Source: Apoderus coryli
Lineage: Eukaryota > Arthropoda > Insecta > Coleoptera > Attelabidae
Assembly (NCBI GenBank): GCA_911728435.2
Contig: OU452208.1
Span: forward strand, 1,364,001 to 1,428,000
DNA length: 64,000 bases
Direction of reading: 5' to 3'
The notes beneath the pieces are model-generated. The model was not told where the DNA came from and searched no databases. It was given only the letters and a program-made list of their open reading frames with translations. The first letter of the stretch is position 1; every line of letters starts with the position of its first letter. Both the position numbers and the translations under genes were made by a program. Shown piece after piece: positions 11,771-60,087 of this stretch.

Positions 11771-12090
11771 GACATGTTTAGCATTTCATATTAACTAAAT
11801 TAAAAATAAAGCCTTTAGATTTCGAGTGTCGTACAAATATGATTTAATTTATTTACAAAGCAGGTGCATCAAATCAATGGACGTACAGCAAGATAATTTT
11901 GAGTCTTATTTGGGCTTTTAAATTCTCTAACCATTGGTCCTAGTATATTTGAACCATACTGCACTTTGCAGTACACATAATACATATGTACCTATATGCT
12001 CGCGATTATTGATTGAATACAGAACAATAATCTCAATCTTTCGTAAAAATAATTTCCGGCGAACACAATTACGTAAAACAATTATTATAA

Positions 12091-12350
12091 CATTGGTTTA
12101 ACGTACAAAAGTCATAGATTCATGTTTCTCGTTCGTAACATTAATAACCTTCAGACATCGGTTTAATGTACAAAAGTCATAGATTAATGTTCATCGTTCG
12201 TAACATTAATAACCAGCTAACATCGGTTTTACGTATTGGAGACATAAACTAATCTTCATCGTTCGTAACATTAACAACCTGGTAACATCGTTTTAACGTA
12301 CAGGAGTTATAAATTAATGTCCATCATTCGTAAGATCAATAACCGGCGAG
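12091..12350. repeat. 65 bp tandem repeat, four units
   Basis: Four diverged units start at 12091, 12156, 12221 and 12286, exactly 65 bp apart. Each begins CATYGGTTTWAYGTA-like, then has a (g)TCATAGATT-like block, a TCGTTCGTAACATTAATAAC block and a short variable end. No coding frame. Sub-terminal tandem repeats of this kind are common in DNA transposons and Helitron-like elements. The flanks at about 9900 and 12520 may be the matching termini. Confidence 0.75.
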
Positions 12351-13445: not shown

Positions 13446-14580
13446 AACCGATGTGTATTTGGCATTACAACTGTAATGCCAAATCTCTTCTTGCAAAACA
13501 CTATACCCAATTTATTGGAGTACTGCGTGCCAAAATGTGTTTTTTTTTTGTTGAGAAACAGAGCCTAGCGCAAATTTTAGAAGAGACACGCGCCATTTTT
13601 AATTTTCTAGGCATTAACACAATATTGCATTTGCGTCAAAGCACGCCAATAATAGTAGTCATTCTTAGTTCTAAAATTAGTGAAAATCGATAAAGGCGTT
13701 TGTAAATTATTCCGCAAAAACGATATTAAGTTTAGAACTTTAGCGGCCAAACTTTAGTTGAGGAATTTGTGGTTAAGCGCTGTGCAGTCATTTCATGGAC
13801 ACCCTGTATACCTACGTAAATAAGTAGTTTTAAAAAAATGTCATATACTTTAACCAAATTCTCGCAAATTTGGTACAAAAATACTATGGGATATGTCTAG
13901 GTGCTGATTAACTGTTAGGGAGCAATGAGCATTGGCAAGAGGTTTAAAAATTTAAATAATTCATACCTCTTAAACTTATCCGAAATATTGAATAATTTTT
14001 CATTGGTTAACCGAACACATTAACCTTAAAAAAAATCAAATTTAACTCTATATTTTTCACCGATCGTCGTCGCCTTGGGACACACTGTAAATTAAACAAA
14101 GGAAAAGTTGAAAATACCAACAGAGGCAAAAAAGTGAGAATAGGCGATAAAAGAAAGGTAAAGCTTAGTTATTTAACACTATGTATTATTCAGTAGAATG
14201 GTTTTATTTTCGTCGATTCTTCTTTGTTATGGTTTAGTCCTTTTTACCTGATCCTCAGTTATTGCATCCTTTTTGGTACAGCATGTTTTTCCATGTATAT
14301 GAGTATTTTTAGATAGGGTATTTTATACTATACCACTTTCTTCGGGACTATACTTCTTTACCCATTTACGGCTAATGTAATAATTAAATTAAAATTATCA
14401 TTTTTTTTGTACTCGTATTTTCAGCTCATCATACACATAATATTGCATGTGGTATATGAAGTTATTTGTTTCATGAAATAAAATGAAAAATATATATATA
14501 TTGAAATTAAGGCTAGTCACAAGACTTACATTTCGAGAGTTTGGTGATTGCTGGTTGATAGTACCTTAGAAGTTTTGGGA
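13446..14580. other. Transposon tail plus repeat fragments, no gene
   Basis: Up to 13811 this is probably the decayed remainder of the preceding transposase element. At about 13850-13925 there is an inverted partial copy of the repeat family also found at about 23.6 kb and 44.9 kb (shared blocks around TTTGGTACAAAAATACT and AGGTGCTGATTAACT). The rest is AT-rich with no recognised feature. Confidence 0.45.
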
Positions 14581-14775
14581 AAAGTAACCATACTATTGTT
14601 TTGAAAATTTAAGTGTTTACTCAGGTCAACCCAATCTATCAGTCTATAATATTGTGATACTTGTACGACTTCTTGTTATATCGAAAGTTTTCATATTTCA
14701 AATGGATTTCCCATCAATTTTGAAGTATTTTATTTTATCACTTCCCTATTCCCTATCTTCAACTGTTTTTGAATG
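14581..14775 (+). repeat. Dispersed repeat A, copy 1
   Basis: This 190 bp block (AAGTAACCATACTATTGTTT onwards) is nearly identical to 18290-18480. It matches in inverted orientation 16320-16450 and more distantly 59895-60012. It holds no coding frame. It ends in a mariner/IS630-like context near other CAGGGTG-type ends, so it is probably the sub-terminal part of a MITE family. Confidence 0.65.
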
Positions 14776-15399
14776 AATAGTTTATTTTGATTTTTTTTTG
14801 GTCCAAAACAGGTCTCGGGAAAATATTCGCCATTTTGTATATCATCTTAAGAATATTAACCATCTTGAGCGAATGACGCACTTGGTTACAGGGATGGCGC
14901 AAATGGCATACCCTGTATATTATCAAATATTCTGAAATACAATCAAATTTACTTTCAAATTATATATCATGTTCCTATACCTAAACTGTAAGGTTTCTGA
15001 AATAAAAACAAGTTTGTATAACAATTGGATCATGTGAGGTAATGAAAAATTGTAATTATAATATTTTGACACTTAGTGGTATTTATGTGTGCTGAACCTT
15101 AACAAAACAGAAGAAAAATATCACTCTAATGAAGTTTTAATTAATATGTCTATTATTCATGAGCAAATTGACAAATTTATAGAAATAACATGAGAAAGTT
15201 TAATGAAATCTATCCCGATTTACAACCGATGAACAAGAGAAAGTTTGCACGGCCACAAAATAATTTTATTAACTATGGGTCATAATTGAAGACAAACTAC
15301 TTATATTATGTCAAAAAACAAACATGTATAGTGAAAAAACAAATAACAAAGCGAACAAAATAACATTGCGATAAAAAAAAAGCAAAACATTTATAATAA

Positions 15400-16180: not shown

Positions 16181-16319
16181 TAGTATAGTTTCGCTTTCAG
16201 TTTTGACCATAATTATTTTGTAACCGTGCAAACTTTCTCTTGTTCATTGGTTGTAACATGTCATTAAACTTTCTGCATGTTCTATAATATAATAATATAT
16301 AGGGTGTTTCATTTGAAAT

Positions 16320-16452
16320 AAGATATTTGGTATCAACTTCCGGTATAAGCGGAAGTCGTACAAATATGACAATATTATATACTGATAGATTGGGTAGACC
16401 TGAGTACTTAATCACTTACATTTTCAAAACAATAGTATGGTTACTTTTCCCA
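16320..16452 (-). repeat. Dispersed repeat A, inverted copy
   Basis: This is the reverse complement of the repeat at 14581 and 18290: it contains AACTTCCGGTATAAGCGGAAG, ACTGATAGATTGGGT and CAAAACAATAGTATGGTTACT. It lies just outside the candidate end of the 14.9-16.3 kb transposase element, so that element is bracketed by inverted copies of repeat A. Confidence 0.6.
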
Positions 16453-16742: not shown

Positions 16743-16815
16743 TGCCAGAGCTGGGATTCGACCCCAAAACCTTCTGCAAGCGAAGCGAACGCCCTACCAA
16801 TGACGCCACAGAAAC
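16743..16815 (-). tRNA. tRNA-like sequence (Ala-CGC-like), probably a pseudogene or SINE head
   Basis: The minus strand has an A-box-like TGGCGTCATTGGTAGGGCG, an anticodon-arm region with loop TTCGCTT (anticodon CGC by position), and a B-box-like GGGGTCGAATCCC forming a T arm (TTGGG/CCCAG). It is followed at once by a run of ten T, a pol III terminator. The acceptor arm pairs poorly, which argues against a working tRNA. It may be a tRNA pseudogene or a tRNA-derived SINE head without a body. Confidence 0.4.
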
Positions 16816-16944
16816 CTGGTTAGAAATATTGTATTTTATAAAAGGATGTGTTTGGGATAAATTTATCTAGTTTTATCAACGATAAAACTAGATGTCGCCA
16901 AACACATCCTCTGTAACGTGTGGGGTATATACCACATTATTTAC

Positions 16945-17044
16945 GAGAGTTTGGCTGTCGACTACTGACCGATCACCACTGATGAGTCGTGGATCGACGA
17001 AACGGCCGTCTGGTGAAAGTATAGTGGTTGACAGACAAACTCTC
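16945..17044 (+). ncRNA. Type I hammerhead ribozyme, copy 1
   Basis: Core: CTGATGA (16979-16985), stem II GTCG/CGAC with loop TGGAT (16986-16998), GAA (16999-17001), and a minimal stem III from the self-complementary ACGGCCGT (17002-17009). The predicted cleavage site follows C17010 (GTC before TGGTGA). Stem I pairs TCACCA with TGGTGA. After an internal loop it extends by CTGTCGAC/GTTGACAG (one G-U) and GAGAGTTTG/CAAACTCTC with one mismatch between them. The internal loops are where type I ribozymes make loop-loop contacts. Every invariant core residue is present, so self-cleavage in the + strand RNA is expected. Confidence 0.88.
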
Positions 17045-17277
17045 GGATTTTAAGTCTTGTTTTGTTAAACAAGCCCATTTCAAATATATGCGATCCCGCT
17101 TAAGGGAGTATCGGCGCGTCTATGTCTTGGTAGTTGCTTTATGGGGTCAGAGACCTCCCAGGCAGCCGATATAGGAACTGTTGTTCACTCGGCGTACTAC
17201 CAACGATAAAACTAGATGTCGCCAAACACATCCTTTTACATCTCTGTACCGTGTGGGGTATATACCACATTATTTAC

Positions 17278-17377
17278 GAGAGTTTGGCTGTCGACTACTG
17301 ACCGATCACCACTGATGAGTCGTGGATCGACGAAACGGCCGTCTGGTGAAAGTATAGTGGTTGACAGACAAACTCTC
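17278..17377 (+). ncRNA. Type I hammerhead ribozyme, copy 2
   Basis: The CTGATGA core is at 17312-17318, exactly 333 bp after copy 1, with the same stem II, GAAA, palindromic stem III and stem I arms. I see no difference from copy 1 inside the ribozyme. Cleavage of this and the adjacent copies would release a unit-length 333 nt RNA. Confidence 0.88.
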
Positions 17378-17610
17378 GGATTTTAAGTCTTGTTTTGTTA
17401 AACAAGCCCATTTCAAATATATGCGATCCCGCTTAAGGGAGTATCGGCGCGTCTATGTCTTGGTAGTTGCTTTATGGGGTCAGAGACCTCCCAGGCAGCC
17501 GATATAGGAACTGTTGTTCACTCGGCGTACTACCAACGATAAAACTAGATGTCGCCAAACACATCCTTTTACATCTCTGTACCGTGTGGGGTATATACCA
17601 CATTATTTAC

Positions 17611-17710
17611 GAGAGTTTGGCTGTCGTCTACTGACCGATCACCACTGATGAGTCGTGGATCGACGAAACGGCCGTCTGGTGAAAGTATAGTGGTTGACAG
17701 ACAAACTCTC
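17611..17710 (+). ncRNA. Type I hammerhead ribozyme, copy 3
   Basis: The core is at 17645-17651, again 333 bp downstream. One substitution lies in the outer stem I (CTGTCGTC in place of CTGTCGAC), which costs one pair but leaves the core and inner stem I intact. The downstream half of this unit has a few more substitutions than units 1 and 2. Confidence 0.87.
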
Positions 17711-17908
17711 GGATTTTAAGTCTTGTTTTGTTAAACAAGCCCATTTCAAATATATGCGATCCCGCTTAAGGGAGTATCGGTGCGTCTATGTGTTGGTAGT
17801 TGCTTTATGGGGTCAGAGACCTCCCAGGCAGCCGAAATAGGAACTGTTGTTCACTCGGCGTACTACCAACGATAAAACTAGATGTCGCCAAACACATCCT
17901 TTTACATC

Positions 17909-18287: not shown

Positions 18288-18495
18288 AGTAACCATACTA
18301 TTGTTTTGAAAATTTAAGTGATTACTCAGGTCAACCCAATCTATCAGCCTATAATATTGTGATACTTGTACGACTTCCTGTTATATCGAAAGTTGATACC
18401 AAATTTCATATTTCAAATGGATTCCCCATCCATTTTGAAGTATTTTATTTTAACACTTCCCTATCTTCAACTGTTTTTGAATGAATAATTTATCT
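18288..18495 (+). repeat. Dispersed repeat A, copy 2
   Basis: Nearly identical to 14581-14775 over the whole length (AGTAACCATACTATTG through CTTCAACTGTTTTTGAATGA). One extra block, GATACCAAATTT, is present here and missing there. Confidence 0.7.
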
Positions 18496-20082
18496 CAAAT
18501 TTTTTTTAGCGCGTTCAAAGTAAAATTCATATAAATTAACGAGTTAATTTTATTGGGTCCGTCATATCACAGAAATATTTTGTCACCCCTATAGCATATT
18601 CCAATAATTTTAAATAACATGGAATAATAATAATAAGTCGAAATACTGGTAAATTTGTTATATGTATTATTATAGTAGGAAACTGCAATTGACGTTTATT
18701 GATAACAAAACATCAATGATCAAAGAACTTAGCAATAAAATTAACTAAGTAATATAAATATCTAGTTAATTCCGATTCAATTAATTTTTTATTTAAACAT
18801 AAATTTAACTTTAGTATGCATTTAATACAATCTATTTTTGCAATCCATGAACCAAACGTGGCGTCGTAAAAATCTATTATTTTGTAGAGTTTTTAGGATT
18901 GCCATTTTATAGTGAAATTATTTTATTTCTATATGCACAGAGAAAAATCTATCATATCACGAACCATATGCACATTCAATCAATGATAGCATATATTACG
19001 TATTCCACAATCAAAGCTACATTTCTTTCAATTATACTTATATGATTAATTGCGAAACATATGACTTTATTGCTTTAAGTATAAGAATTAATTGACTTCC
19101 AATCAAATGCCTCAATTATAAGAATATATTGAAATTAAATAAAAAGTATTGATTGGACTAAGTGTCACTATCGTTGATAGAACATTTATTGCTTTTTAAG
19201 GGGAATACAGAAATTATAGACAGAATATATTTTGGTATTGAAATAATTGTTTTGTCATTTTAAATCAATTTTATATATAATCCTGGAGAGAAATTAATTA
19301 CTTAATTTAATAAAACTATCACGTTAACTAATTGTATGAAATAAAAGAAAGTTTTTATTCAAAAACAGTTTTATTAATTCTATAATACATTGTATTGTAA
19401 TAAAAAAAATATTACTCTATAATCACAGTACAAAAAATAAACAATACATTAAAAGATGTATGTCATTCTAATACATGAACATTGAACATGTACGACTAAC
19501 AAAATATTAAACCAAATATCGTATTTGTGCTTTTTTACCATATCTTCATAGTGTCCCACTCCCACTCCGTACTTTGTATACTGTATACCTACATCGTGTT
19601 AAAAGAGGATATTTTGAATTTTGAGGTTATCTGAGGTTGCAAAAATGTATTCCATGCTGCCATGCTATACTGGTTAATGTGAAATAAAAAGCTTAATATT
19701 CATAACTTTTGAATGGAACACCCTGAATAGTTTTGTTAAAACGTTTTTATTATGCATTATAGGTACCTCTTAAATCATTTGTTGGCTAGACCGATCTTTA
19801 ATAGTATTGTTCGAAAAGCTTACACAAAATAATTTATAGTAAAAAACTTATGATTAGATATACTTAGTTAGGAGTAAAACTTACCGGAGAATATTGGAAT
19901 TAGTTTGTCCAATTCTGAGGCGTTTCAGAAGTCTTCCATAATATATTATTGCAGATTATAGAACTTAACTATATAGACACGCGCTACCGGCACACAAATA
20001 GAATAAATATATAAATGTAACATAACCTATTGTTTTAAGCTTTGCTAGTGACTAGGGAGTTCCGAAATTTCCCGATACATCA

Positions 20083-44286: not shown

Positions 44287-44768
44287 GAAGCAACTTTGAT
44301 TTTTCATTTGGTTTTCGGGTAAACGTTATTTTGATTTAAATCTACCATTAACTTGCAATTTATGAGTTTCCATAAAAATGGTAGAAGTCACAACATCGAC
44401 GTAATTAACTTATTTGTAGCTTATACGTTGCTCTTTTTAAAAAAGTAATAATTTAAAATAATGAAGCTTGTCAAAGCTGTCTTTAATTAATTTATGTGTA
44501 AAATTTACCCAAATGCCCTCTATATCTACGCCAATGAACAGTTACTGAAAGCTAAAATAATGCAGATTATTTTATGTTATTGGTCACCAAATTCATGTAA
44601 AAATTTGTCAAAATCGGTTACTTAGCTAGTTTTTGAGAAATGAACAATTTGACCACGAAATTTGGTATCTCGACAACGAAGCGTTTGCGGACATGGGTTC
44701 AATGGCAAAAAATGCTGAAATTACTTTCAGGAATCTCCAGTTTTCGTTTGTTGCAAACATAATGAATA
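44287..44768 (-). mobile_element. Solo terminal arm of the 5.5-7.8 kb mariner-like family
   Basis: The 480 bp from AACTTTGATTTTTCATTTGG to TTGCAAACATAATGAAT match the right arm 7340-7787 (and the inverted left arm) with about one difference per ten bases or fewer. The transposase body is absent. It could be an arm left after internal deletion or recombination between arms. Confidence 0.7.
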
Positions 44769-45012
44769 GGCGTCCATAAATAGTAGAAAAGGGGTCAAAA
44801 AATTAAAGTGTAGAAATTATATATTTAGCAGTTTATGTAGTTAAATGGGTCTTACAAATACACGACCAAAAATTCGTATAGGCCTCCTTGAAAAGTCTAA
44901 AAAAGGATCAGAAAAATCTGTATCCACGATAACTCAAAACTCACTTAACATATTTTTAGCAAATTTGGTGCAAAAATACTTCAGGGATTTCTAGGTGCTG
45001 ATTAACTTTTGG
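44769..45012 (-). repeat. Inverted fragment of the 23 kb repeat family
   Basis: AGGCGTCCATAAATAGTAGA is the inverted core of the 138 bp repeat (TCTACTATTTACGAACGCCT). TCTGTATCCACGATAACTCA, CTTAACATATTTTTAGCAAA and TAGGTGCTGATTAACT match in reverse the 23640-23730 end block. It follows the solo arm directly with no spacer. Confidence 0.6.
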
Positions 45013-45059
45013 AAAACAACAACAGGTAATTGGGTTAGTTTAGAATGTTATTATTATTA

Positions 45060-47012
45060 TGTTTATAATTATAATAATATTTTTTTTTATAGTATTTTCT
45101 TGATTTTAGGTCAATTTGCAAATAATACTGCGGTTTTATGAAAAGCACATTGTATTTTATAAGAAATGTCGATTAAATCTTGACGTTTCGATAATTTTTT
45201 TGATTTTTCTCAAAATAGTCTAAAAGTAAACAATGTTGGAATAAGTTAAAAATTTCCTTACAACTAAAAACATTTAATTGAATATACCTGTATGGCATGA
45301 ATATTGGCTTAAGCACAAATCAACAAACACATTATTACACAAAAATCCAACATATATTTTCCAAAAATCATAATGATATTCGGTTGTCGTTAAACTTAGG
45401 TACCTACATATTTTATTTATTTTAAGTTACACATTGTTTTGTCCAGGTGTACAGCAGGAGAGTGCAGGTATATTCACAAAATACCAGTATAAATTTTGCT
45501 CAAATTATTTAGATCTTTTTTGTCGTTAATTGCCGATTGGTTTTTATGGATATATACCATTTCTTCAGGAAATTTGAGAGTTGTTGTATGTCAAAGAGAG
45601 ATATTTGTTCGAAACTGTATTTTGTTGAATGTTCCTGGATGCATCATTATACATTCGATTTATTCGGTCTTTAAAAATTTTGTTGATCAAGTTCGAGGGG
45701 TATTTATTTTTAATTAACGCATTTTTCGCTTTTTTTATGGCTGTGGATCTAAATTCAGGATCAGATAGTTGGATTGCTCTATCGGCTAATCCAATTATAA
45801 TGGATCTCTTTTGTGACGAAGGATGACTAGAATGGTAGTTAAGATATCGAGACGACCAGGTGGGCTTTGTATACCATTCGGTCTTGATTTCATTGTGAAT
45901 TTTATGTAAGGTTACATCCAGAAAATTAATTTTATTGTTATTTTGTGTTTCAATTGTAAATTGTAACCGTTCATTATACGAATTGAAACTATTTAGTACG
46001 TCGTTGACTCGGTCTTTTGGGATGGCTGTAATACAGTCATCGACGTATCGATAGAAGAAAGGTATGTTTATATTAAGGCTCTCAATGATTGTTTCTTCCA
46101 AATCCTCCATAACCATTTGAGCAATTACACTCGAAATGGCAGCTCCCATTGCACATCCGTTTATTGTTTAAATAACTTATCTTCATAGACAAAATAAGTT
46201 GACTGTAATGTCATTTCCAGAGCATTGATAAATTCTTGCTGAGGAATATCAGTGTGTAGACTAATTTCGCTCCATTTTTTTTGGATAATAGTGTGTACAA
46301 TTGGGATCGGGATGCTGGTGTATAACGACACTACATCCAAAGAAACAAGTATATAGTCGTCAGGAATTTTTATGTTTTTCATTTTCCCATGTATTCTTAA
46401 TGTAATATTTGTTTTTGTAAAGAATGTTTTTTAAAATATCTTTTAAGAAGTTTGAAACGGGTGTAAATGGTGTTTGTATAGACGAAACAATTGGTCGTAG
46501 TGGAGTATTTAATTTATGTAATTTAGAGAGACCATAAATCTTTGGTGGTATAGCGTTTAGTATTTTTAGTGATCTACTAGTATTTGGAGAAATAGACATT
46601 TTATTTTCCCATGACTCAATTAATTTATTAGTTTGTTTTTGATACGTATTTGTTGGGTCACGTTTAATTTCTTTATAGGTAGTATTGTCATTTAATAAAT
46701 CAAACAGTTTTTTGTTGTATTCGGATGCATCAATAACAACAGTCTTGTTAGATTTATCTACTCTCAGAATTTTGAGATGTTTATTATTTCTTAGAAAATT
46801 ATTAGTTTTTCGTAATTTGTTTTGGTCAATGTTATTTTTTATATTTTTGTTTTTTAATTTATTTTTGAAGTTGGTAATAATGTTACATGTTTGAGTTCTT
46901 ATTTTATCTCTATCCTTACTTTTAAGATGACTCGTGCCACATTCGATGTTAGAAAGAATATCAGCTACCGGAAGTTCTTTTTCCGAATTTATGTTTTTAG
47001 CAAAATTGCTTT
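45060..47012 (-). mobile_element. Penelope-like element, copy 1 (RT, endonuclease deleted)
   Basis: Reading leftward from about 47000: N-terminal SEKELPVADILSNIECGTSH, IDQNKLRKTNNFLRNNKHLK, LRVDKSNKTVVIDASEYNKK (46990-46700), then the RT blocks to 45565, then a non-coding 3' end to about 45060. The GIY-YIG endonuclease present in copy 2 is missing: the sequence jumps from the end of RT (about 45568) to the 3' end block (GGATATATACCATTTC). Several frame changes are present. Confidence 0.75.
45565..46599 (-). pseudogene. Penelope-type reverse transcriptase
   Basis: Pieces in order: ILNAIPPKIYGLSKLHKLNT, PLRPIVSSIQTPFTPVSNFL (46560-46440), ILVSLDVVSLYTSIPIPIVH (first catalytic Asp of the SLDVVSLYTSIP block, 46355-46290), FVYEDKLFKQ, then MGAAISSVIAQMVMEDLEET and IPFFYRYVDDCITAIPKD (YVDD active site, 46060-46020), FTIETQNNNKINFLDVTLHK, TKPTWSSRYLNYHS and SQKRSIIIGLADRAIQLSD. 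These are diagnostic of Penelope-like RTs, which are related to telomerase RTs. The frame is broken near 46155 and 46370. Confidence 0.8.
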
Positions 47013-48340
47013 ATTACAGCGATCCCAAAAGACCGAGTCAACGACGTACTAAATAGTTTCAATTCGTATAATGAACGGTTACAATTTACAATTGAAACAC
47101 AAAATAACAATAAAATTAATTTTCTGGATGTAACCTTACATAAAATTCACAATGAAATCAAGACCGAATGGTATACAAAGCCCACCTGGTCGTCTCGATA
47201 TCTTAACTACCATTCTAGTCATCCTTCGTCACAAAAGAGATCCGTTATAATTGGCTTAGCCGATAGAGCAATCCAACTATCTGATCCTGAATTTAGATCC
47301 ACAGCCATAAAAAAAGCGAAAAATGCGTTAATTAAAAATAAATACCCCTCGAACTTGATCAACAAAATTTTTAAAGACCGAATACATCGAATGTATAATG
47401 ATGCATCCAGGAACATTCAACAAAATACAGTTTCGAACAAATATCTCTCTTTGCCATACATAGATGGTTTGTCCCAACAACTCTCAAATTTCCTGAAGAA
47501 GTATATGATTAATGTATGTCACAAAAGTTATAATCTATGTTCCAAATACTTCAGCTCATTAAAAACGAAAACATCTAAATGGAAAAAAAGCAATATTATT
47601 TACGAAATACCATGTGTTAATTGTGAGGTAGTATATATCGGCCAAACATCCCAATATTTGGAAAATAGAATAAAAGGTCACAAATACGACAAAAAAAAAA
47701 TAAAACTGCATTAACGAATCATGAAATTACAACTAACCATAAATTTGATTTCAATAACACCAAAATTTTGAAGACTGAAAATAACAAAAAAAGGAGGTAA
47801 TTTCTGGAAATGGTACTTATATATCCATAAAAACCAATCGGCAATTAACGACAAAAAAGATCTAAATAATTTGAGCAAAATTTATACTGGTATTTTGTGA
47901 ATATACATGCACTCTCCTGCTATACACCTAAACAAAACAATATTTAACTTAAAATAAATAACATATATAGGTACTTACCTAAGTTTAACGACAACCGAAT
48001 ATCAATATGATATTTGGAAAATATATGTTGGATTTTTGTGTAATAATGTGTTTGTTGATTTGTGCTTAACCCAATATTCATGCCATACAGGTATATTCAA
48101 TTAAATGTTTGTAAGGAAATGTTTAACTTATTCCAACATTGTTTGCTTTTAGACTATTTTGAGAAAGATAAAAAAAATGATCGAAACGTCAAGATTTATT
48201 CGACATTTCTTATAAAATACAATGAGCCTTTCATAAAACGGCAGTATTATTTGCAAATTGACCTAAAATCAAGAAAATACTATAAAACAAATTATAAAAA
48301 AGAGGTCAAAGAAAAAAAAAATTATAATAATATAGATAAT
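47013..48340 (+). mobile_element. Penelope-like element, copy 2 (5'-truncated, with GIY-YIG)
   Basis: It begins abruptly at the ITAIPKDR point just after the RT active site. It then runs through the RT end, GIY-YIG endonuclease and 3' non-coding end, mirroring copy 1 to about 48340. The two copies are head-to-head, so 45060-46049 and 47013-48340 form a large imperfect inverted repeat around the 5' part of copy 1. Inverted or partial tandem copies are usual for Penelope-like insertions. Confidence 0.78.
47022..47714 (+). pseudogene. Penelope-like RT C-terminus and GIY-YIG endonuclease
   Basis: RT end: AIPKDRVNDVLNSFNSYNER, INFLDVTLHKIHNEIKTEWY, SQKRSVIIGLADRAIQLSD, INKIFKDRIHRMYNDASRN. Endonuclease: KWKKSNIIYEIPCVNCEVVY and IGQTSQYLENRIKGHKYDKK, i.e. 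the IYE...Y-IG motif with CxxC and Arg/His of the GIY-YIG nuclease (47585-47690). A frameshift at about 47700 separates the following TALTNHEITTNHKFDFNNTK and ILKTENN. The GIY-YIG nuclease would make the target nick in live elements. Confidence 0.8.
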
Positions 48341-49739
48341 ATTGTATTTTTTAAATTTTAAAAATTTAATGAAAACACGACTTTACCCAGCGGATATCAT
48401 ATTTTAGATTATAATGTACAGCATATATATAGTTCAACCTTCGGGAAAGTTTTGGGCTGACAGATTTTTTTTTGTATCATGTTTGTTCTTGCATTAACAC
48501 CCAAAAACTTTTACAACCTACCAAACAAATATATGATTTATTATAATAAAATAAATTATCTTGAACTCTCAACAGAGGAATAATATACCGATTATTAATT
48601 ACTATAAACATTTTAGTACCAAATATTATTTTTAAATTTGTTTAACTTTTTAAAAAAGTGTTTTAAATAAATTTCGCATCAAATATAAATTATCGTACGT
48701 TTGAGTGACACCAAATTAATTTTAATGTGGCGATTAAAACGGATTTACGTATTATTTAGTAACTGAAATTATTTATTTTATTTTAATTAACTGGGGAAAT
48801 AAATAAATAGTTCAGATTGATTGAAACGTTTTACTCTGAGAATGAATTATTGAAAAATATCTATTTTAAAAATAAAAATGACATATTTTTTAGAACGACT
48901 AGCTGACTAATATTAATGCTCTGCAAAAACAAGCCAGTTTGCATTCATCAATATTTTGTTAGAACGAACGTGTGTTTGGTGATTTATCTCGTTTATTGTT
49001 GAATAATTTATTTAAACTGAAAACAGTAAAGTTGATAATTAATTGATATAAAAGTATGGCTCTGAAGCATACAGGTTGATTCTACTATGAGCTTGGGTCG
49101 GTATATTGCGTGATGGTATTTGTATAGTGATTTTCCCTAGGACGAACCACTTTTGAACCACAAAAAAGTGAAAGTAGAGAAGTAGATTAGTTACTTACTG
49201 GGTTGAGTTGGGAAGAAGGAGAACCAAATTTATCAAGGCCAAATTTGCACGTAAGTTGAAGCACAGTGTGCTTGAAGAAAGTTAAATGCTAAAAAAAAAA
49301 CAATAACCCAGCAGATTAAATAACTCAGAATTTTTATGACAGATTTTTTGGGTGCCGTTGACCTTTACATACATGTGAATTTTGAGCTGTTTTATAATAT
49401 AGTATAAAGTACTTTACCCCAGTATGCATTTACAATAAAAAAATCCGAGGATAATCATTTTTAAGCAATAAAATTGTCATATAATTGATAGATTTACTAA
49501 TGTAAAAATTGGAATTGATAACGATTCACTTTAAGAATGAGAATGAATAGCATCAACTCTCGTTTATTGGCCATTTTACAGACATTTAGAGTCATACAAA
49601 ATATAATTAATATGCTAATAAATTTTAACAGGAAAATAATTAAAATTTAAATTTAATTATCAATAAAAAAAATTTTAGGCCTCTTTTCGAACTATTAATG
49701 TGTGACCTGGATTGTGTTCTTGACAGTGACAAGGTTTTT
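48341..49739. other. AT-rich non-coding stretch
   Basis: No coding sequence recognised. TTCGGGAAAGTTTTGGGCTGA at about 48439 resembles a block of dispersed repeat B. Otherwise nothing was seen. Confidence 0.35.
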
Positions 49740-56297: not shown

Positions 56298-56413
56298 AAA
56301 TATTTAGATTAAGGTTGCATTTTGCGTTCTTTGATTCACGGTGATTTGTGTTCTTTGATTCACGGTGATTTGTGAATCAAAGAACGCAAAATGCAACCCT
56401 AATCTAAATATTT
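56298..56413. repeat. Large hairpin, about 42 bp arms with internal repeat in the loop
   Basis: The left arm starts AAATATTTAGATTA and runs through GGTTGCATTTTGCGTTCTTT to GATTCAC. The right arm GTGAATCAAAGAACGCAAAA ... AATCTAAATATTT is its reverse complement with about one mismatch. The loop (about 32 bp) holds a second copy of GTTCTTTGATTCAC, so the left inner arm is tandemly duplicated. This would make a very stable hairpin RNA or DNA. Possibly the ends of a MITE whose centre was lost. Confidence 0.75.
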
Positions 56414-59738: not shown

Positions 59739-60012
59739 AAATATATGACCTGCGTTACGAAACAGAATTTTAATAATCGTTATTATTATAATTGTATTAT
59801 TTTCAATAAACTAACATAACAAAATTCAAAAATTAAAAAAAATATATTGCTAGAATTAAATTGTATGTGGTGCAAAAAGGCATTAGACGTTTTGAGAAAA
59901 CTAAGGATACGATTGTTTTGAAAATTTAAATGGTCAAGCCAGTCTATCACTCTATAATTAGTGCCATTTGTGTCCCTTCCGGTGATACCGGAAGTTGATA
60001 CCGACTTTATTA
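59688..60012. repeat. Dispersed repeats B and A together
   Basis: 59688-59860 matches repeat B at 16560-16740 (CCCCAAAACTTTTCCGACAAG, CAAATATATGACCTGCGTT). 59895-60012 matches repeat A (ATTGTTTTGAAAATTTAAATG, CAGTCTATCACTCTATAAT, ACCGGAAGTTGATACC). Finding A next to B in both places supports one parent element. Confidence 0.6.
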
Positions 60013-60087
60013 TTTCAAATAGAACAACTTGTATAGAATTTATTTTTGAATTCCTTATCTGTTTGGGACCCAACCTAACACCCTATA

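Follow-up and report, generated by a model that had tools for sequence, protein, structure and literature searches.

Animal retrozymes of the non-LTR type have been described as repeats with a type I hammerhead ribozyme, units of 170-400 bp, a GC content below 50% and a highly self-paired predicted circular RNA, in genomes that also carry Penelope-like elements (PLEs) (Cervera and de la Pena 2020, PMC7229834). That paper, which mentions insects in general, proposed circular templates and called PLEs 'strong candidates', and left open both the enzyme that moves these elements and whether the circular RNAs are the true templates. PLEs cut and extend both strands of AT-rich targets, with an internal start in an AC-rich stem-loop and two start sites (Frangieh 2024, PMC11167929), and Penelope inserts show an inverted pLTR and duplications of 8-10 bp (Arkhipova 2013, PMC3846280). 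Within the excerpts on which this comparison is based, the reports of hammerhead repeats in salamanders, Schistosoma and Dolichopoda (PMC7229834, PMC6155905, PMC8490949, PMC2837043) contain no comparable analysis of insertion ends, and one W-element has a presumptive target-site duplication (PMC8490949). Among the papers listed in the literature searches, none described in its title or abstract opening a retrozyme integration pattern of the kind reported below.

The locus analysed here resembles the animal retrozymes of PMC7229834 in its type I hammerhead, its unit of 333 bp with a GC of 0.46, its highly self-paired predicted circle and the presence of a PLE in the same genome. Its family goes beyond them, as presented in the excerpts of that paper, in that the insertion ends reveal head-to-head joints, duplications, shared variants and a pair of start sites. 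We regard the element as probably a non-autonomous animal-type (non-LTR) retrozyme, the monomeric and probably circular RNA of which would be copied with both target strands as primers, a PLE being the most likely source of the enzyme.

The tandem array and its hammerhead motifs

The window, a stretch of 64,000 nt (positions 1364001-1428000 of contig C17), was analysed together with the 428-Mb assembly of 129 contigs to which it belongs. It contains three units whose starts follow one another in two steps of exactly 333 bp (Table 1), confirming the tandem hammerhead array that the earlier note had claimed. The three units differ pairwise at 1, 5 and 4 positions, and their GC is 0.456-0.459. 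A loss of 9 nt where the first units meet (16910-16911), at site B, shortens the step from the partial leading unit. The inverted arm at the left end reached a local score of 46, a value attained by none of 2000 mononucleotide shuffles (best 25). No ORF of at least 120 amino acids, and hence no reverse transcriptase or GIY-YIG ORF, was listed within the insert, nor did the insert match phage and plasmid records at the limit used.

Table 1. Coordinates of the features in the window (unit positions are numbered with u1 as the first base past the predicted ribozyme cut)
Feature	Position	Strand	Remark
Whole insert of the window locus (putative retrozyme)	16839..17908	+	
Short inverted copy (~39 nt) of unit end	16839..16877	-	head-to-head block, outward end at site B
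Partial leading unit	16874..16908	+	step to first full unit 324, not 333
Unit 1 (333 bp)	16909..17241	+	
Hammerhead 1, long stem I	16944..17045	+	core match 16973-17016; predicted cut after 17010
Site A, unit positions 72-79, putative reverse-transcription start	17082..17089	+	no end there at window locus
Site B, unit positions 226-233, putative reverse-transcription start	17236..17243	+	both outward ends of window locus
Unit 2 (333 bp)	17242..17574	+	
Hammerhead 2	17277..17378	+	core match 17306-17349; predicted cut after 17343
Unit 3 (333 bp)	17575..17907	+	
Hammerhead 3	17610..17711	+	core match 17639-17682; predicted cut after 17676
Penelope-like element, two head-to-head copies	45077..48295	.	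outward ends align to one element position; candidate helper family

Every unit carries CTGATGA, stem II, GAAA, ACGGCCGT and GTC together with a long stem I, with every core element in place, including the palindromic stem III listed in the earlier note. The predicted cuts are spaced by 333 nt, and the third hammerhead has a single substitution in outer stem I (17627). The strict core pattern occurred three times in the window and in none of 100 shuffles. The Rfam model for type I hammerheads (RF00163), a check suggested beforehand, matched all three units at 33.8 bits (E 4.2e-6 locally and 1.2e-4 for the whole window); this falls short of the gathering score of 34 by 0.2 bits, and a search at that score accordingly reports none of the three. 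Elsewhere in the genome, a search in which 73 of 52,198 candidates were scored gave four matches and placed two hammerheads above the RF00163 cut-off, L077 at 37.4 bits, which belongs to a second family, and L078 at 34.4 bits.

Stem II had been read as GTCG/CGAC, and the window copy does have these four pairs; since L078 and L077 both break the fourth, a stem of 3 bp with a 7-nt loop is the better fit. Stem III consists of 2 bp with a GGCC loop, within a palindrome, ACGGCCGU, that could pair between two units (computed duplex energy, -14.1 kcal/mol). Folded as a circle, the unit reached a computed energy of -119.4 kcal/mol, whereas 100 shuffles averaged -84.4 (sd 4.9), z being about -7.2. The computed energy favours a catalytically inactive pairing of the core (-52.6, compared with -43.9), as tertiary contacts lie outside the energy model and the catalytic core cannot be scored by it. 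In a three-sequence alignment, four pairs had changed on both sides against 1.3 in shuffles, and 87.9% of cells were paired against 84.7% in shuffles and 29-46% when slid. Further pair types showed no excess (8 against 8.7 in shuffles), and 9 of the 30 stem I pairs showed loss of pairing only, so that covariation lends thin support to the predicted stem.

The second, divergent retrozyme family (L077:380-860) has the same hammerhead core, and its stem I, although different in sequence, also folds into a long helix; it is likewise arranged head-to-head, with one end at an A-like site by eye. A general hammerhead pattern hit five loci in viral_contigs and one in genome_contigs, with one match per stretch, and these were set aside as unrelated; a tandem-repeat scan of the last such stretch only returned nothing. 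Two patterns nearer to the unit had no match in viral_contigs.

Insertion ends, head-to-head form and target sites

A one-unit query retrieved at least 140 matches from the genome (40 scored of 1,231 candidates), and a query of u1-u70 at least 43 (40 scored of 878), these candidate numbers not being copy numbers. The family was found to be dispersed, and 62 loci were analysed by mapping their blocks to the unit. In the first sample the full-unit query began by chance at site B, which favours long blocks starting at B; 60 of the 140 match rows were entered and grouped into 40 loci, the remaining rows lying inside the same loci by eye, and all 40 were used, including the window locus (L015). The second sample, drawn with the u1-u70 query, which is distant from the ends and selects copies intact there, gave 29 loci, six of them already in the first; 22 of the 23 new ones were used and one near a contig end was omitted. 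L077 and L078 stand outside these counts. One truncated block of L066 was removed from the tallies, L067 was counted twice among single blocks, and the minus block of L041 is a match of 21 nt only. L026 and L027, both on C19 and about 181 kb apart, are identical in insert and flanks and represent a segmental or assembly duplication; L027 was therefore left out of the variant, duplication-word and block-length counts and kept in the tallies of ends, end pairs and 5' ends.

Block ends were taken as insertion ends because the flanks, L026 and L027 excepted, look unrelated between loci by eye. Among 103 outward 3' ends (L027 included), 44 lay at site A, defined as u68-84 and mostly u72-79, and 51 at site B, defined as u224-239 and mostly u226-233, about 154 nt away; eight lay elsewhere, so that A and B together account for 95/103. 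All 40 loci with two blocks had the minus block before the plus block, that is head-to-head, with no tail-to-tail case. Their end pairs were A+B in 33, neither A+A nor B+B in any, and one odd end in seven, the A+B share being 22/28 in the first sample and 11/12 in the second. The single-orientation entries ended at B in 14 cases, at A in eight and elsewhere in one. The window locus was tallied among these because its inverted arm is short; with B at both ends and no target-site duplication seen, it is an exception in the family.

A word of at least 7 nt common to both flanks was found at 32 of the 33 A+B loci with L027 included. Without L027 the figure is 31/32 (mean 10.3), whereas mismatched pairs gave 61 of 992 (mean 4.4); these words may take in up to a few element bases on either side. 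The one A+B locus that had no such word is L068. The proportion was 1/7 at the two-block loci with an odd end (the exception being L057), where the six others may have lost an end, and 7/23 for single blocks. The AT content was 0.83 in 64 flanks against 0.70 in 63 stretches lying 200 nt away. Dispersed copies, with duplications of more than 4 bp when present, are the standard by which animal retrozymes are held to be mobile, and this is what the family exhibits, the window locus having no duplication. Both the dispersal and the duplications at the distinct A+B loci bear out the retrozyme reading of the earlier note, which was largely right.

Founder variants and the RNA template

In the favoured reading, the arrays would be transcribed and the type I hammerheads would cut the array RNA into 333-nt monomers, which would then be closed into circles. 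An enzyme acting in trans, most likely PLE-derived, would cut both strands of AT-rich DNA, and both cut ends would prime on one monomeric RNA, at A and at B, copying it over anything from a partial turn to several turns. Joining of the two cDNAs head-to-head would produce the insert and a target-site duplication of about 7-12 bp. The scheme is built on what the comparison of genomic copies provides, namely the ribozyme motif, the A and B ends, the head-to-head form, the duplications, variant sharing of the kind left by one founder, and a ribozyme in which no inherited change was counted.

For the comparison of variants between blocks and loci and for the substitution counts, blocks shorter than 80 nt and 8 nt at block ends were omitted. 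Many locus-specific variants recur in every unit of their locus. L076 has four locus-specific variants, each in five or six units, L032 has five, each in two or three units, and L048 has three, each in three units; no single-unit variant was counted at any of these loci. When all units of one block agreed on a variant, its partner block at that locus also had it in 68/126 cases, the corresponding figure between loci being 217/3,994; the 58/126 not found in both blocks were taken as later mutations. Partial sharing was seen in seven cases, four of them clustered in L047 and one, at L015, differing from the majority base. This distribution fits one founder unit sequence per insertion, as would follow from two reactions on the same monomeric circle. 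Gene conversion could likewise have made the units uniform, as could a multimeric template that was itself uniform. The near-identity of the window units had been attributed to recent activity or homogenisation. Recent activity agrees with the three loci that have no single-unit variants; later homogenisation is not needed, as one template per insertion can account for the near-identity.

Blocks of 333-352 nt, corresponding to one turn, made up the fullest 20-nt bin (7/48; four starting at B and three at A), a peak that was noticed post hoc and for which 6/7 blocks came from the first sample, with its bias towards long B-start blocks. It is as if copying often halts after one turn. Founder substitutions were absent from u296-333 (0/42), where single-unit substitutions were not (21/143), with a Fisher p of 0.0046 on instances, which are not all independent, and of 0.078 on distinct sites (0/21). 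That founder changes spare this segment suggests that cutting matters for spreading. Six of the 21 distinct founder variant sites lie within unit positions 230-246, at or just past site B. In the first sample, the inner 5' ends were scattered over the unit with no enrichment at the cut (3/56 within 10 nt, 3.7 expected). A linear template ending at the ribozyme cut was thus unsupported, and a linear monomer of this kind would not be the usual template.

A somewhat unlikely alternative is that the same retrozyme is copied from a linear multimeric array transcript instead of a circle. Such a template would suit the longest block, of 2,254 nt or nearly seven turns (L018), and the PLE studied in vitro takes unprocessed RNA and has no need of its own hammerhead (PMC11167929). 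Against it, the founder variants are common to all units and to both blocks with partial sharing rare, no inherited change was counted in the ribozyme, and the one-turn peak, post hoc and partly sample-biased as it is, points the same way.

The candidate enzyme and further alternatives

The window holds two head-to-head copies of an element that we take to be Penelope-like, from the combination of a reverse transcriptase and a GIY-YIG domain in one element. The two domains scored 22 against 29.6 bits and 19.9 against 22.6 bits respectively, both under the Pfam cut-offs, and the arms of the element are 99% complementary over 452 nt. Among named protein matches, its best relatives come from the beetles Cylas, Callosobruchus and Henosepilachna, with ants among the weaker ones. 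Together with the beetle matches of the LINE proteins in the window, they make a beetle the probable host. A degenerate GAAACGTC motif was seen in it by eye; an Rfam search around it (44400-49200) gave no hammerhead up to E 10, and no sequence common to it and the retrozyme was seen by eye.

Sites A and B both lie in AC-rich stretches (98th and 92nd percentile of AC in the unit) on the 3' side of small predicted hairpins. The family shares with PLEs, as these are presented in the excerpts of PMC11167929 and PMC3846280, an apparent extension of both strands, two putative start sites with an internal start near an AC-rich stem-loop, an inverted fragment placed head-to-head, short duplications and AT-rich targets. 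The head-to-head inverted end, the fixed internal starts and the duplications are found in the relatives, and the window locus is without a duplication. Site A lies 72-79 nt past the hammerhead cut, against 85-92 nt for the PLE start, by subtraction from the numbers in PMC11167929. Unlike PLEs, the retrozyme is without a protein of its own, has a full and not a minimal hammerhead, and has its start sites farther apart, about 154 nt against a PLE 'tail' of 30-40 bp. By analogy, a PLE is the best candidate for the enzyme that would move the retrozyme, because of two-strand extension, AC-rich internal starts, the inverted end, the 8-10-bp duplications and the PLE in the window.

It is distinctly unlikely that the helper was instead a LINE and the head-to-head form a product of ordinary twin priming. 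LINE twin priming gives head-to-head inserts with duplications of similar size, and reverse transcriptases of LINE type are common in the window, with RVT_1 in 5/9 ORFs tested and best named protein matches in the beetles Tribolium and Callosobruchus. Against a LINE stand the insertion ends, which show no poly(A) or common 3' tail by eye and fall at fixed internal sites, A with B in 33/33 two-block loci having both ends assigned. A plain satellite, expanded by unequal crossing-over with the ribozyme as a passenger, is very improbable: its tandem units would be almost identical, as these are, but the purely satellite reading fails because the relatives are inserts dispersed over the 62 loci, their ends clustered at A and B, with duplications at all but one of the distinct A+B loci, and the ribozyme is spared by founder variants. 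That the element is a cut-and-paste DNA transposon or MITE with internal tandem repeats is scarcely credible. The window locus, taken by itself, does look like one, with perfect 17-bp inverted ends (16839 and 17904) and TA on the flanks, but the two outer ends of the A+B relatives are different sequences and not inverted copies of each other, their flank words are mostly 7-14 nt and not TA, and block lengths vary freely; a TIR transposon with a TA duplication was rejected, the relatives showing neither constant terminal inverted repeats nor a duplication of fixed length.

With two-strand copying of one monomeric RNA as the preferred reading, a tentative generalisation, quite possibly correct, is that animal retrozymes move by obligate two-strand priming on one circle, at A on one strand and at B on the other, often for one turn and with a PLE acting in trans. 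If true, this would constitute natural evidence that ribozyme-made RNA circles can become tandem genomic DNA, and the genome copies would document the rolling reverse transcription of such circles. The signature, comprising A+B ends, a head-to-head joint, a duplication, shared founder variants and a clean ribozyme, can be checked in any genome, and sites A and B provide two named RNA sites for tests with PLE protein.

Single blocks had 5' ends near u271-288 at L066, L067, L055, L063 and L065, those of L066 and L067 being due to nested LINE insertions. The inserted LINE 3' ends (L066:1338-2025 and L067:983-1592) carry poly(A), are 97% identical to each other over 628 nt and occupy one and the same position of hammerhead stem I in separate copies, with duplicated stretches of at least about 12 bp; they may come from a LINE that targets the retrozyme specifically.

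Around the array, one dispersed repeat has copies at 14543-14799, 16310-16445, 18288-18507 and 59893-60050, two of which lie on either side of the array in inverted orientation. The outer pair so formed (16310-16445/18288-18419) was considered as part of the element and rejected, being this dispersed repeat with other copies in the window. Beside the array, a stretch on the minus strand (16747-16822) is tRNA-like by eye only, ARAGORN and Rfam reporting nothing there. Elsewhere in the window, a 65-bp repeat occurs in four tandem copies at 12088-12344, and a hairpin at 56303-56408, which scores as miRNA families far under their cut-offs (45.5 bits for a cut-off of 73 and 43.4 for one of 100), is perhaps a MITE.
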